This document shows, one piece after another, positions 41,048 to 45,164 of a DNA stretch of 60,718 nucleotides (position 1 is the stretch's first letter; the number at the start of each line of letters is the position of its first letter). The notes under the pieces are model-generated. The model ran no database searches, had not been told where the DNA came from, and was given only the letters and a program-made list of their open reading frames with translations. Source of the stretch: Geobacteraceae bacterium (GTDB lineage: Bacteria; Desulfobacterota; Desulfuromonadia; Desulfuromonadales; BM103); contig JAHEDT010000014.1 of assembly GCA_024641085.1 (NCBI GenBank), positions 1 to 60,718 on the forward strand, given 5' to 3'. The translations under genes and the position numbers were made by a program.

Positions 41048-41989
41048 ATGGACATCCTGATTTCCCTGCGCGACAGTCTTTTCACTGGCGAATTCCTGCA
41101 AAGCAAGGTTTTCTATACTCTGCTGGCGCTCGTGATTTTCTGGCTGATACAACGACTGCTGCTGGCAGTTCTCCTGCGCGAACGGGAAGTCCAGGTTCAG
41201 TACCGCCTCCGCAAAACCGTTGCCTACATCACCTACCCGCTGGCCTTCCTGGTCATCGGCCGCATCTGGTTCGCCGGTTTCCAGGCCCTGTCAACCTACC
41301 TCGGCCTGCTCTCGGCCGGCTTGGCTATCGCCCTGCAGGCCCCTCTGGTCAACCTGGCCGGCTGGGCCTTCATCCTCTGGCGCCAGCCATTCAAGGTCAG
41401 TGACCGCATCCAGCTGGGCAGCGACCGCGGTGACGTCATCGACCAGCGCATCTTCATGTTCAGCCTGATGGAGATTGGCAACTGGGTCGACGCCGACCAG
41501 AGTACCGGGCGGGTGATTCACATCCCCAACGGTAAGATTTTCACAGAGGTTCTGGCCAACTACGGCCAGGGTTTCCAATATATCTGGAACGAAATCCCCG
41601 TCCTCGTAACCTTCGAAAGCGACTGGCGCAAGGCCAAGCAACTGCTCGACGAGATTGCCCACCGCCATGGCACCTCGCTCAGCGATTCGGCCGCCAAGAA
41701 ATTGCGCGAAGCCGCCAAGAAATTCATGATTTTCTATTCGAAACTGACGCCGGTGGTCTACACCACGGTCAAGGACTGCGGCGTCATGCTGACGATCCGC
41801 TATCTTTGCGACCCCCGGCAGCGACGCGGCTCGGAGCAGGCCATCTGGGAAGAGATTCTCGACGTCTTCGCCGCCCATGACGACATCGATTTCGCCTACC
41901 CGACTCAGCGCTTCTACAGCAACGCCACAGAAGGGAAGCCCGGTACCCGTCCCGAAGCGGTTTACTCACCCGGGCAGGCCGGAGGATAG
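41048..41989 (+). CDS. Small mechanosensitive (MscS-family) channel
   Basis: The 313-residue membrane protein has three or four N-terminal hydrophobic segments. The pore helix and beta domain have the MscS pattern: STYLGLLSAGLAIALQAPLV, NLAGWAFILWRQPFKVSDRI, VIDQRIFMFSL and GRVIHIPNGKIFTEVLANY. It releases solutes under hypo-osmotic shock. ATG 41048 is chosen at the start of the first amphipathic segment; the frame extends 36 codons upstream without homology. It is monocistronic as far as can be seen. Confidence 0.88.
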   Translation: MDILISLRDSLFTGEFLQSKVFYTLLALVIFWLIQRLLLAVLLREREVQVQYRLRKTVAYITYPLAFLVIGRIWFAGFQALSTYLGLLSAGLAIALQAPLVNLAGWAFILWRQPFKVSDRIQLGSDRGDVIDQRIFMFSLMEIGNWVDADQSTGRVIHIPNGKIFTEVLANYGQGFQYIWNEIPVLVTFESDWRKAKQLLDEIAHRHGTSLSDSAAKKLREAAKKFMIFYSKLTPVVYTTVKDCGVMLTIRYLCDPRQRRGSEQAIWEEILDVFAAHDDIDFAYPTQRFYSNATEGKPGTRPEAVYSPGQAGG

Positions 41990-42378
41990 ATGATTACTCA
42001 GGGGCCCGCTTTGCAGGGCTGACTGCGACAGCGCTGCACAAGACCTTTGCAGACCCCGTTCATCCGCTCACTTGATCATAGAATCAACCCGTGGCTGTTC
42101 AGGCCGTCCCCCGCCCGCATCCGCGGTCAAAAGGGTATTGTCAGATTCCCTTTGACAAACGCATAAGGTGTGATTAAATTTCAGAAAGTTGCTTATGTAT
42201 GCTCTGCATTGCCGGACCGGCCAGCCGTCCGACTCATTGGTCCGAAATGAACAGCTGGCCAGGTGATTCTTCCCGGCAGTTTTTTCCTGTCGCACAATTT
42301 ATCAGTCCTCCCAATGGCTATGAGCAGACATCATAGCGAGTTTTCGGTAATCAGTATCTGGCGCGAAGGGGGCTAAAG
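41990..42378. other. Leader region of the lipoprotein operon
   Basis: This 389-bp gap contains a sigma70-like promoter (42152-42180). About 190 bp of leader follow before the first lipoprotein gene, with several GC-rich inverted repeats (for example around GCCGGACCGGCCAGCC near 42211). Confidence 0.5.
42152..42180 (+). promoter_or_regulatory. Sigma70-type promoter of the lipoprotein operon
   Basis: TTGACA (42152-42157), a 17-nt spacer and TAAATT (42175-42180). Confidence 0.6.
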
Positions 42379-42837
42379 ATGAAAACAGTGACGCTTTGGG
42401 CAACAATTCTGGTAGCACTGGTACTGGGTGGATGTATGAGCGCTTCACAGCATGCGGCAGATGTTCAACAGGGTGTGTCAGGTGACAAATTGACGGTCGG
42501 GACCGTGCAGAGGGAGATCCGCAACGGCATGAGTAGTGCCGAGGTCGCCGAGGCCCTGGGCTCTCCCAACATCGTGTCGCGGGACGAGAAGGGCCACGAG
42601 GTCTGGATTTATGATCGGATCGCAACCGACACGGTCTACTCATCCAGTGAGGGGGGAGTCAGTTCGCTGATTCTCGGTGGTTTTGGCGGTTCGGCGATTC
42701 TCGGTGGCCTGGTCGGAGGTGGCGGACAGCAGAGTACCGGGGCCAAATCGACCAGCCAGAGGACCCTGACCATCATCATCAAGTACGATGAAACCGGCAA
42801 GGTGAGCTCCTTCGCCTACCACTCCTCTCGATTCTGA
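42379..42837 (+). CDS. BamE/SmpA-like lipoprotein
   Basis: The 152-residue lipoprotein has lipobox LVLGGC, making Cys19 the acylated residue after signal peptidase II cleavage. Residues 40-80 (TVGTVQREIRNGMSSAEVAE, then LGSPNIVSRDEKGHEVWIYD) match the SmpA/OmlA-type fold seen in BamE. A glycine-rich stretch (LILGGFGGSAILGGLVGGGG) follows and could insert into or against a membrane. Asp is absent at the +2 position, fitting outer-membrane sorting. It heads a five-gene lipoprotein operon. Confidence 0.75.
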   Translation: MKTVTLWATILVALVLGGCMSASQHAADVQQGVSGDKLTVGTVQREIRNGMSSAEVAEALGSPNIVSRDEKGHEVWIYDRIATDTVYSSSEGGVSSLILGGFGGSAILGGLVGGGGQQSTGAKSTSQRTLTIIIKYDETGKVSSFAYHSSRF

Positions 42838-42844
42838 GGCACTC

Positions 42845-43288
42845 ATGCGTGTGCTGCGCCTTGTCGAAACGGTGCTGACGCTCTCTTTTGTGGTCACCTT
42901 GGCCGGGTGCATGTCTCCACCCAAGCCTGCGGAGTTTTTCCAGCCGGTATCGCTGCAACAGCACCAGATCAAAAGCCGAGTGTTTGAAACCAGCAATGAA
43001 ATCACGATTATGAGAGCCTGCACCAACGTGCTGATGGACAACAGCTTCCAAGTCTATGAAGCGGAAAGTCAGCTGGGTTGGATTTCGGCACGTAAGCTCA
43101 AATTTATCCCATTAGAGATGCCAGCACCGGCTTCATCCAGCGCAACGATCCTCGTCTACCCTAATGCAAGCCGCCCCGAAACGTCGATTGTGCGGATCAG
43201 CATTCAAAATGTGGTTGATGCGGATATTTACCAGGAACTGTTCGCCAGAATTTCCCAGTCTCTGTTTGTGAAGGCTCAGCCGCTATGA
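42845..43288 (+). CDS. Paralogous lipoprotein A of the array
   Basis: The 147-residue lipoprotein has lipobox TLAGC, with Met at +2. The core HQIKSRVFETSNEITIMRAC, then LGWISARK, and the tail DIYQELFARISQSLF align with the three following proteins. Relative to them it has lost the LQDLGF signature (NVLMDNSFQV instead). No characterised family is recognised. It starts 7 bp after the BamE-like gene and overlaps the next gene by 4 bp (ATGA). Confidence 0.75.
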   Translation: MRVLRLVETVLTLSFVVTLAGCMSPPKPAEFFQPVSLQQHQIKSRVFETSNEITIMRACTNVLMDNSFQVYEAESQLGWISARKLKFIPLEMPAPASSSATILVYPNASRPETSIVRISIQNVVDADIYQELFARISQSLFVKAQPL

Positions 43289-43719
43289 GGAAACACCTGA
43301 CAAGAATGCCATTCCTGTTTGCTCTCGGGCTGCTCCTGATCTCGGTCGGTGGATGTGTTTCCACCCAGGAACGACTACTCGATTCGGACACGAGCCAACT
43401 GCAACTGCGCAGTTTCCAGTCCCGGGCTTTTGAGACAACCGACCAGATGAAGACGCTCCGGACTGTGATGTTAACACTGCAGGACCTCGGATTTATCCTC
43501 ACCTCGGCAGAAGCCGGGGTGGGGAGCGTGACCGCCAGTAAATGGAACCGGAGTCTGATGATTATCACCGTGTCGGTCCGTCCGCGGGGGGAAACCCAGA
43601 TGCTGGTGCGGGCCAATTGCCAGATTGACAAGGAACTGGTCAACGATCCTGTCCCATACCAGATGTTTTTTTCAGCTTTGGCAAAGGCGATGTTTCTAGA
43701 GGCACACGAGGTTGAATAA
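43285..43719 (+). CDS. Paralogous lipoprotein B of the array
   Basis: The 144-residue lipoprotein has lipobox SVGGC. The shared core reads LRSFQSRAFETTDQMKTLRT, followed by LQDLGFILTSAEAGVGSVTA and SKW, and the tail is YQMFFSALAKAMFLEA. Predicted as an alpha/beta domain with an early charged helix and a C-terminal helix. Its start overlaps the stop of gene A, indicating translational coupling. Function unknown. Confidence 0.75.
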   Translation: MRKHLTRMPFLFALGLLLISVGGCVSTQERLLDSDTSQLQLRSFQSRAFETTDQMKTLRTVMLTLQDLGFILTSAEAGVGSVTASKWNRSLMIITVSVRPRGETQMLVRANCQIDKELVNDPVPYQMFFSALAKAMFLEAHEVE

Positions 43720-43763
43720 CGGCAGATGAACGGCCGGCGGCATAGCTTGATGGGATAACCAAG

Positions 43764-44300
43764 ATGAGAAGGCGGGGTTTGACAGTCAGCTGCATGATTG
43801 GCCTGGTGGCTCTGGCTGCCTGCGTGCCCAAGCCCATCCCGGAGGACCTGCGCATAACCTCTGAAAGCCTGGTCAGCAGGCAGCAGCAGACCAGGATATT
43901 TGAGACCGAAGATGAAGCCAGGGTACTGGCCGCCAGTTCTGCGGTCCTCCAGGATCTCGGCTTCCTCATCGATGAAAGCGAACAGCAGCTGGGTCTGTTG
44001 GTAGGATCGAAGATGCGTGACGCTATCAATCCGGTCGAGGTGGTCCTCATGACGATCCTGGCAATCATGGCCAAGTCCGACCCGGTCTACAGCGAGCGTC
44101 AGCTGATGCGCATCAGCCTGGTGACGACACCGAGCATGCAAACCCTGACGGGGATTTCGGTAAGGGTCACATTTCAGCGAATCGTCTATCTCAACAATGG
44201 TAGGGAGTCCAGGCTTGAAACCCTGGGGACACCCGAGATTTATGAGGAGTTCTTCGCCAAGCTCTCCAAGGCCCTGTTCCTGGAAGGGAAAGAGCTATGA
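43764..44300 (+). CDS. Paralogous lipoprotein C of the array
   Basis: The 178-residue lipoprotein has lipobox ALAAC. The shared core is QQQTRIFETEDEARVLAAS, then LQDLGFLIDESEQQLGLLVG and SKMRD; the tail is IYEEFFAKLSKALFLEGKEL. It is the longest paralog, carrying an insertion with a hydrophobic stretch (VEVVLMTILAIMAK) after the SK motif. It is 44 bp from gene B and overlaps gene D by 4 bp. Confidence 0.75.
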   Translation: MRRRGLTVSCMIGLVALAACVPKPIPEDLRITSESLVSRQQQTRIFETEDEARVLAASSAVLQDLGFLIDESEQQLGLLVGSKMRDAINPVEVVLMTILAIMAKSDPVYSERQLMRISLVTTPSMQTLTGISVRVTFQRIVYLNNGRESRLETLGTPEIYEEFFAKLSKALFLEGKEL

Positions 44301-44695
44301 TGCCTTGGTTCAGAGTGCTTGCAGCGTTGGTTCTGCTTTCAGCCTGCACGGAGTTGTCCCCGCGCGAAATCGTCTTCGAAGATGCCGCCCGTCAACAGCA
44401 GTTGCGCACGATCCAGACCCATTCATTCTCTGTGACAAATCGTATCAAGACCATGCGGGCAGTGATCGTGACACTGCAGGACCTCGACTTCGTCATCGAC
44501 CAGGCTGATTCGCAGCTCGGCTTCATCAGTGCCACCAAGCTCAACGGCTACCACCTGGACGCTTCTGTCCTGGTTGACGATACTACCCCCGATCGGCTGC
44601 TGGTCCGGGTAAGCTTTGCCGCCGGACTGCAACCAATACAGGATGACTCCTACCAGGAATTTTTCACTTCCCTGCAGAAAAACCTTATCCCATAG
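44297..44695 (+). CDS. Paralogous lipoprotein D of the array
   Basis: The 132-residue lipoprotein has lipobox LLSAC. The shared core is QLRTIQTHSFSVTNRIKTMR, then LQDLDFVIDQADSQLGFISA and TKLNGYH; the tail is SYQEFFTSLQKNLIP, shorter than in the paralogs. It overlaps the end of gene C (ATGA) and closes the operon. No terminator is obvious downstream. Confidence 0.75.
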   Translation: MMPWFRVLAALVLLSACTELSPREIVFEDAARQQQLRTIQTHSFSVTNRIKTMRAVIVTLQDLDFVIDQADSQLGFISATKLNGYHLDASVLVDDTTPDRLLVRVSFAAGLQPIQDDSYQEFFTSLQKNLIP

Positions 44696-45021
44696 TCGGT
44701 GCGGGTTCCAATGGCAGCTTCACCCGGCCCTCCAAGACGCCCTTCCCTCTGGGAACAGAGCAAAAGGCTCTCACCGCTTAAAATCGAAGGCCCTTTATAA
44801 ATGAGTTCGCAGGTATCAACCAGCAAACACGTGAAATTCGCTCGCCTTCCCAAAAGACCCTGACAATACGGCGATCAGCCTGGCAACGGTTGCCATAAAG
44901 CCCCTATTCATGACGGCGGCACTGGTAACGAGGTTTCCGGGTTTCGAAGCCACTTTTATCCTTGAGCTGACCAACGCTAGCGATGCAAATTTGCAACTGC
45001 ACAAGGTTGTTCAAAAATTTG

Positions 45022-45107
45022 GTTTTCGGCTTTGACAAGCTCAAGCCTAAAACATTGTTCGAAATTTCGTTTTCGGATTTGACAAGTTCAAGCCTAAAAC
45101 ATATGAT
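45022..45107 (+). repeat. 47-bp tandem duplication of promoter sequence
   Basis: Two direct copies share TTTTCGG-TTTGACAAG-TCAAGCCTAAAACA with a few mismatches and a 47-bp period (TTGACA at 45032 and 45079). Only the downstream copy has a good -10. Confidence 0.8.
45079..45107 (+). promoter_or_regulatory. Near-consensus sigma70 promoter of dctP
   Basis: TTGACA (45079-45084), a 17-nt spacer and TATGAT (45102-45107), 57 bp upstream of the dctP ATG. Confidence 0.75.
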
Positions 45108-45164
45108 GAAATGTATTTAACCACCCTTATTGGCTCGTCACTCAACGGATCAGGAGGAATTGTT

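Follow-up and report, generated by a model that had tools for sequence, protein, structure and literature searches.

Within the beta-barrel assembly machinery (BAM) of Escherichia coli, BamC binds BamD and BamE contacts both BamD and BamA, as described in passages of a 2026 review (PMC13067283), which also place the origin of BamB, BamE and BamC within Proteobacteria. Sections of a survey (PMC3359395) report no BamC-related sequence in alpha-, delta- or epsilonproteobacteria; its BamE hits there are limited to OsmE-like ones, from a few deltaproteobacterial species and a single epsilonproteobacterial one. The locus analyzed here lies on contig JAHEDT010000014.1 of a Geobacteraceae bacterium, of which a stretch of 60,718 nucleotides (hereafter the window) was examined. 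It is a run of five genes at positions 42379-44695, all on the plus strand, encoding a predicted BamE-fold lipoprotein (E) followed by four paralogous lipoproteins of two types, A and B. Judged from sequence comparison, the underlying unit E-A-B is a rare cassette that recurs as a fixed set across unrelated bacteria. No paper on this cassette was found in the open-licence PMC literature, which is no proof that none exists, and its components fall in or near known superfamilies.

Homologous loci were gathered from plasmids, relatives, the organism's own phylum and a named genome collection. From 105 loci picked up through exact peptide patterns with E as bait, the best 80 were compared, and a paralog was found immediately downstream of E on the same strand in 80 of 80. 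According to a profile scan, the typical locus consists of E, then the longer paralog (A), then the shorter paralog (B). The orders were EAB in 53 loci, ABEAB in 16, EABAB in 2 and others in 9, with A and B labels taken from profiles trained on those same loci; the ABEAB loci that have rows in the tree described below are alphaproteobacterial. A reverse search from paralog profiles yielded 22 positive genomes (10 of 296 others of the own phylum and 12 of 398 Pseudomonadota), and E adjoins in 17 of these. The Pseudomonadota positives were found with the B profile and include the Azospirillum centre genome G345 and G347, both already-known carriers. In the remaining genomes, contigs end where E would be expected (G209 and G377) or fragments and weak hits occur without E (G317, G477 and G607). 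E itself was present in 9 of 296 own-phylum and 9 of 398 Pseudomonadota genomes, and in every one of these it adjoins a paralog, the paralog match being weak in G110 and G331. Among 21 same-family genomes, A-type matches were obtained in one other only.

The paralogs of the window can be ordered further. A search of the genome with the protein starting at 43285 (B1) gave, besides itself, only its three neighbours at E<=0.001 (1.3e-15, 1.0e-5 and 2.3e-4), in agreement with an earlier note, made from the sequence of the window, that the four genes behind E are paralogous. The motif blocks that it described are looser than claimed: B2 has THSFSV in place of (S/T)R-FET and A1 has LMDNSF in place of LQDL-F, Q-LG is absent from B1 and the tail Lys from A1, and B2 ends early. 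A 91-row tree (35 of 85 sources, rows of 100-240 residues, quick method, midpoint root) separated A-type from B-type sides with a Shimodaira-Hasegawa-like approximate likelihood ratio (SH-aLRT) value of 100, without bootstrap. The A side comprised 33 of 35 first-downstream-position rows together with all third-position and all upstream-distal rows, and the B side all second-position, fourth-position and upstream-proximal rows. The long-branch first genes of two single-paralog loci (L085_D1 and L100_D1) fell on the B side, a placement that carries a warning of long-branch joining. A and B are homologous by hhalign (probability 99.9), and under the midpoint root their split is the base of a tree spanning the phyla. 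Because the tree assigns the paralogs to the A and B sides by position, the run reads as E-A1-B1-A2-B2, and its paralogs are two A-B pairs, not four independent copies. The same order occurs in the Olavius algarvensis deltaproteobacterial symbiont (L054) and in Desulfuromonadales bin L075 (same stretch as L017), that is, the pair duplication is common to two other deltaproteobacterial genomes. Where the earlier note saw four diverged copies duplicated in place, the tandem paralogy holds; duplication in place can apply to the pair duplication only, the A/B split being basal.

Judged by record titles, E-bearing loci were found in alpha-, beta- and gammaproteobacteria, Desulfobacterota/deltaproteobacteria, Campylobacterota (Helicobacter) and Elusimicrobiota, as well as in Omnitrophota, Verrucomicrobiota, Planctomycetota, Nitrospirota and Nitrospinota, about ten phyla overall; two 'Deltaproteobacteria' bins were labelled Myxococcota in the distance and tree comparison. 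A concatenated tree needs 14 phylum changes against a minimum of 8, which is compatible with some transfer and is no proof of it. Pairwise distances co-vary (A-B r 0.75, E-A 0.55, E-B 0.57; 0 of 999 permutations in each case, host phylogeny not factored out), as expected for a set travelling together. Clustering of 755 flanking open reading frames (ORFs) from 85 sources, with many contig ends, gave ATP-binding cassette (ABC) ATPases from 7 sources as the largest cluster, then an Azospirillum-centred one of 5 sources, then an Elusimicrobia lipid-transport set. Since no widely shared neighbour gene was found among these ORFs, the E-A-B set stands alone. The earlier note had suggested looking for the tandem arrangement in other genomes and had named, as outcomes that would speak against it, matches to a characterised family or single scattered copies. 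Neither was seen, because the four followers have no match to a described family in Pfam, NCBIfam or PADLOC and the linkage is conserved across phyla.

Several variants of the cassette were observed. The soil bacterium Azospirillum brasilense carries the plain E-A-B form. A reduced form, E plus one paralog, occurs for example in Nitrospirota (L069) and in Vibrio sp. THAF191d, in the latter at L168:4944-5907 on a 1.85 Mb replicon for which the PLSDB table lists no genes there. The smallest carrier seen was the 8-kb plasmid p4E072658 of Acinetobacter baumannii (paper mill isolate), on which a full E-A-B (L015:4535-5920) sits between genes annotated as a RelE/ParE-type pair and a LysR-type gene. 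Five paralogs surround one E at L211:3569-6458 (G645), two of them on the opposite strand and two seemingly with a plain signal peptide and no lipobox; match positions in G712 are similar. The B protein of a Magnetococcales bin (L041:1071-1988) has a C-terminal extension of about 150 residues past the B domain. An apparent BamE-A gene fusion in L108 was rejected, as the joined frame crosses X residues that mark an assembly gap.

Coordinates of the genes and of their predicted parts are given in Table 1. The five lipobox-bearing genes of the earlier note were confirmed, a signal peptide and a lipobox with its Cys being recognised by eye at the start of each protein. ATGA overlaps had been described throughout the run; E and A1 are separated by 7 nt and B1 and A2 by 44 nt, and 4-nt ATGA overlaps are present at two of four junctions, exactly those of A1/B1 and A2/B2. 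For the proposed single promoter there is a slight indication: a scan of 41950-45150 returned 4 sigma-70-like matches against 1.4 expected, one of them inside the 389-nt gap upstream of E. The flanking genes, for a mechanosensitive-channel-type protein upstream and a tripartite ATP-independent periplasmic (TRAP) transporter solute-binding protein downstream, appear unrelated to the run. Directly upstream of the TRAP gene, tandem near-identical stretches (TTTTCGG.TTTGACAAG.TCAAGCCTAAAAC, by eye) were seen at 45022-45100, one of the two overlapping a promoter-like match at 45079-45107.

Table 1. Genes and predicted elements of the five-gene run in the window (pLDDT, predicted local distance difference test score).
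Feature	Position	Strand	Remarks
Candidate sigma-70-like promoter upstream of E, TTGACA-17-TAAATT	42152..42180	+	10/12 consensus match
E, predicted BamE-fold lipoprotein, 152 aa	42379..42837	+	lipid-attachment Cys codon 42433
Hydrophobic loop of E (mature residues 77-98), rich in Gly/Ala/Ser and poor in charge	42661..42726	+	mostly pLDDT <50
A1, predicted A-type helix-grip lipoprotein without hydrophobic insert, 147 aa	42845..43288	+	Cys codon 42908
B1, B-type (short) paralog, 144 aa	43285..43719	+	Cys codon 43354; ATGA overlap with A1
A2, predicted A-type (long) helix-grip lipoprotein, 178 aa	43764..44300	+	Cys codon 43821; mean pLDDT 94.3
Hydrophobic helical insert of A2	44016..44102	+	from model and insert comparison across loci
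B2, B-type (short) paralog, 132 aa	44297..44695	+	Cys codon 44345; ATGA overlap with A2

The lead gene had been called BamE-like, and both profile and model comparisons bear this out. PF04355 matched the window E with an E-value of 0.00084-0.0012 (19.1-19.5 bits, below the Pfam cut-off of 23.2) and matched 65 of 65 E family members at E<=0.01 (best 4.3e-7), while the NCBIfam BamE equivalog NF008585 gave 23.7 bits, far under its cut-off of 93. No protein of the window's own genome reaches the Pfam BamE cut-off, and E is the best match there; other members of the family are 44-75% identical to it. The model of E had a mean pLDDT of 76.3, with residues 77-98 effectively unmodelled. With this model, the top eight PDB rows from Foldseek were all chain E of BAM complexes, one of them at E<=0.001, and VIA comparison of the model core with BamE gave Z 9.8 (root mean square deviation 3.0, 75 aligned). 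A sequence search of the PDB with E gave 19 matches at E<=1, of which 15 were BamE (E 0.015-0.033) and the top row was the unrelated MecA (0.012). E is accordingly modelled as a BamE-fold lipoprotein of the BamE superfamily. It is like BamE of the BAM complex in fold, motif region and lipoprotein nature, and unlike BamE proper in its long Gly-rich hydrophobic loop and in the paralog that stands beside it in all 80 loci. Other proteins of BamE fold scored Z 7.2 (9vnj_B, N-terminal domain of TpgA), 8.9 (OsmE, 4dm5) and 8.5 (BtiO, 9uu1) against E by VIA; according to its structure title, 9vnj contains a BamE-fold domain in complex with the AtaA barrel. We know of no A/B-type partners of TpgA, OsmE or BtiO, and to our knowledge their genetic context is different.

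The A2 model, with a predicted template modelling score of 0.83 and the high pLDDT given in Table 1, starts with a helix, a strand and a second helix, continues with two strands, an inserted helix and three strands, and closes with a long helix, and a helix-grip fold is confidently predicted for A. All 7 PDB matches of the A model at E<=0.001 were BamC chains, three of them identified by complex title and chain letter only. The fold class is firm, and a link to BamC does not follow from fold alone because other helix-grip folds score alike. Mature A and B proteins of the window have 116-159 residues, the family medians being near 159 (A) and 122 (B). Profile comparison by hhalign placed A against a 21-row BamC N-domain at a probability of 78-80 (P ~1.5e-5, 98-103 columns, 0 of 100 column shuffles as high) and B at 14.7, and the BamC N-domain against the BamC C-domain at 91. 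Similarity of A or B to the C-domain was weak: after trimming, 1 of 100 shuffles was as high for each, and untrimmed A gave 27.4. DUF2242 (PF10001), represented by only two sequences out of three retrieved, gave 94.9 over 89 columns with B and 61.4 over 20 columns with A (0 of 60 shuffles in both cases). These column shuffles are lenient controls, with no unrelated helix-grip profiles as calibration. DUF4136 (PF13590) gave 0.2-0.3 with A/B, using a four-row set that probably contains at least one wrong frame, and in the Pfam scan it matched 3 of 79 A proteins at E<=0.1 (best 0.01).

Database searches filed the paralogs in no family. BamC (PF06804) was not matched by the five window proteins in Pfam at E<=1, and at E<=0.1 it was not among the best 25 of 27 families for 79 A proteins nor among the best 25 of 29 for 71 B proteins. 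DUF2242 was matched in Pfam by none of the window proteins and by 1 of 79 A proteins (E 0.036), and was not among the best 25 of the 29 B families. The Pfam matches obtained at E<=0.1 were scattered and chance-like, both for A (27 families, best 0.0027) and for B (29 families, best 0.0052). With the same 79 A and 71 B proteins, NCBIfam gave 10 families at E<=0.01 for A (best 0.00066, beta-lactamase and polyketide synthase models in one member each) and 4 for B (best 0.004), and none of the scattered matches in either database occurred in more than three members. A sequence search of the PDB with A gave noise only (best E 0.023, RNase H); viral contigs had no match to A2, nor a viral structure library to A at E<=0.001. 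Taken together, A and B would form a group of helix-grip lipoproteins that lies close to DUF2242 and BamC and is filed in neither, both relationships being remote. A is like BamC in fold and in the position of the insert region within the profile match. In BamC, however, two domains lie in one chain, whereas A/B have one domain per protein in two proteins, occur outside beta- and gammaproteobacteria and are without the BamC/BamF-type N-terminal motif. DUF2242 proteins are small lipoproteins like B, yet the Pfam DUF2242 model does not recognise the A/B family.

A separate set of frames (226-267 aa) was seen in the Pseudomonadota sample at L159-L167, with a BamC-type 'PLDVPPEL' N-terminal motif in 8 of 9 by eye; together with L155 and L158 it gave an hhalign value of 94.1 against the BamC N-domain. 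These may be BamF-like proteins, in which case the helix-grip fold would extend to BamF, contrary to the view taken in the relevant section of PMC3359395.

Hydrophobic elements recur in both A and E. In the insert region of A, 69 of 79 members have at least 12 residues, and 67 of these 69 contain a 12-residue stretch with a mean hydropathy of at least 1.6. The loop of E averages 64% Gly/Ala/Ser and 3% charged residues, with a stretch of mean hydropathy of at least 1.6 in 43 of 65 members. Among loci with two A genes, the insert is present in exactly one A in 16 of 21; it is present in both in four (L043, L079, L090 and L099) and in neither in L092, where an A gene is broken up. Where one gene occupies the A position, at least 16 residues are present at the place of the insert in 60 of 62 loci, scored by length only; the other two are cut by a contig end (L070) or contain an assembly gap (L108). 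The insert was lost in A1 of the window and kept in A2. Since the deltaproteobacterial and alphaproteobacterial duplications are separate in the tree, one A has lost it on more than one occasion, and the insert is read as a part that may be needed about once per locus.

The absence of Asp at position +2 of a lipoprotein denotes outer-membrane sorting, a rule known from E. coli. Asp occurs there in none of 79 A, one of 71 B and none of 65 E proteins (1 of 215 overall), sets that were chosen for a lipobox, which was present in 199 of 211 frames of the paralogs and in 77 of 85 of E (12 and 8 frames left out). This near-absence fits outer-membrane sorting by the E. coli rule, and by established rules the products are probably lipidated and sorted to the outer membrane.

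From these features a working model can be outlined. The locus would be an expanded three-gene cassette, E-A-B, in which A and B are two old paralogs acting as a pair, and whose products would be exported, lipidated and sorted to the outer membrane. A and B would form a heterodimer (A1:B1 and A2:B2 in the window) that assembles with E on the periplasmic face, and contact with the membrane or a beta-barrel may be made through the Gly-rich hydrophobic loop in E and the hydrophobic helix in A. The co-linearity of the genes, the ATGA coupling within the window A/B pairs, the pair duplication and the co-variation of distances suggest that A, B and E work together, and it is quite likely that the cassette products do so as outer-membrane lipoproteins. 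We infer a physical A:B:E complex; docking on BamA/BamD or another barrel is speculative. Given that BamC binds BamD and BamE contacts BamD and BamA, E-A-B resembles the BamC/BamE side of BAM, and the complex would work like that side as an optional, occasionally transferred add-on, not as a core component. The full proposal, an outer-membrane lipoprotein complex of E and the A:B pair accessory to outer-membrane protein assembly or barrel stability, is put forward tentatively, as plausible and somewhat short of an even chance. A bolder version, in which the cassette is an old, transferable accessory assembly set of 'split BamC plus BamE' with the BamC-type domains as two dimerising lipoproteins in deltaproteobacteria, Campylobacterota, Elusimicrobiota, Omnitrophota, Verrucomicrobiota, Planctomycetota and others, seems unlikely.

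The link to BAM rests on fold and remote profile resemblance, and several results weigh against it. Template modelling scores of the A model to the seven BamC chains were 0.37-0.40 by model length, and VIA placed the BamC N-domain (Z 9.2) after Flpp3 (10.7) and a plant protein (9.4), with KA1 and Bet v 1-like folds following it closely. The profile probability of A against the BamC N-domain varied with the BamC rows used (20.3 with six, 13.6 with eight, 78-80 with 21), and an alphaproteobacterial-type BamC-N-like set that reached 94.1 with the BamC N-domain gave only 0.6 with A and 20.7 with B. DUF2242, a family of unknown function, fits B better than BamC does and gave 0.3 against the BamC N-domain. 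The BamC/BamF-type VPPDL motif was found in the first 40 residues of none of the 79 A or 71 B proteins, using a pattern that, sought anywhere, matches 9 of 21 BamC sequences, i.e. misses 12. No BamC was present among the 60 listed of 132 PDB sequence matches of A at E<=10, and no BAM gene was a recurrent neighbour in the flank clustering of 85 sources. Furthermore, the module coexists with BamC in 6 of 17 hosts searched and would be no replacement for it in such hosts. Finally, some Elusimicrobia have lipid transport genes of Mla/Pqi type as neighbours of the module.

That neighbourhood is the basis for considering a module of lipid homeostasis, in which the trio would be the outer-membrane partner of Mla/Pqi-type phospholipid transport and its loops would handle or sense lipids. 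In an Elusimicrobiaceae locus (L103:9526-12727), genes for MlaE, an ABC ATPase, MlaD and a PqiC-type ABC_trans_aux protein come after the module in the same orientation, as assigned by Pfam for L103 only; frames of the same lipid-transport clusters lie upstream of the module in L114 and several kb off in L098 and L102. Helix-grip folds often bind hydrophobic ligands. These neighbours are confined, however, to one lineage, and among the 85 sources no flank cluster but the ABC ATPases (7) exceeds 5, so that this explanation is regarded as decidedly unlikely. The structural neighbours of A also include ligand-binding helix-grip proteins of START, Bet v 1 and CoxG type, and A/B might instead be receptors for a small hydrophobic ligand that signal envelope stress, with E as carrier or anchor. 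Such a sensor is judged quite improbable: genes for regulators or sensors do not recur widely next to the module, and KA1 and BamC domains, of the same fold class, bind proteins or membranes.

The patchy distribution, in 2-3% of sampled genomes and on large secondary replicons and one small plasmid, could also suggest a conflict module, with E and its partners as periplasmic lipoproteins that give immunity against, or exclude, toxins, phages or rivals. Bacteroides BtiO has the BamE fold, and BamE-like proteins are described as candidate immunity proteins for lipocone toxins in part of PMC12419801. The same section characterises lipocone immunity proteins as rapidly evolving and toxin-associated, whereas E members are 44-75% identical to the window E and the genes flanking the module are not widely shared. 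PADLOC models matched none of the five proteins of the window at E<=0.1 and the Azospirillum E had no match in 50,697 phage records, leaving a role in conflict very unlikely. The suggestion closest to the earlier note, a four-subunit ring or scaffold unique to the Geobacteraceae window genome and built of four independent duplicates, draws on the four intact lipoprotein paralogs in one gene run. With one A-B pair and E as the usual unit, by the tree and in 53 of 80 loci, and with the four-paralog order shared by two other genomes, it appears highly improbable.

Under the preferred reading of E-A-B as an accessory outer-membrane lipoprotein set, the fixed combination of a BamE-fold protein with two BamC-fold-like lipoproteins provides a testable accessory lipoprotein candidate in alpha-, delta- and epsilonproteobacterial groups and further phyla. 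The pairing of A with B, the repeated duplication of the pair and the retention of the insert in one A lead to clear predictions. If the 'split BamC plus BamE' version were true, BamC- and BamE-type subunits would not be inventions of the Proteobacteria.

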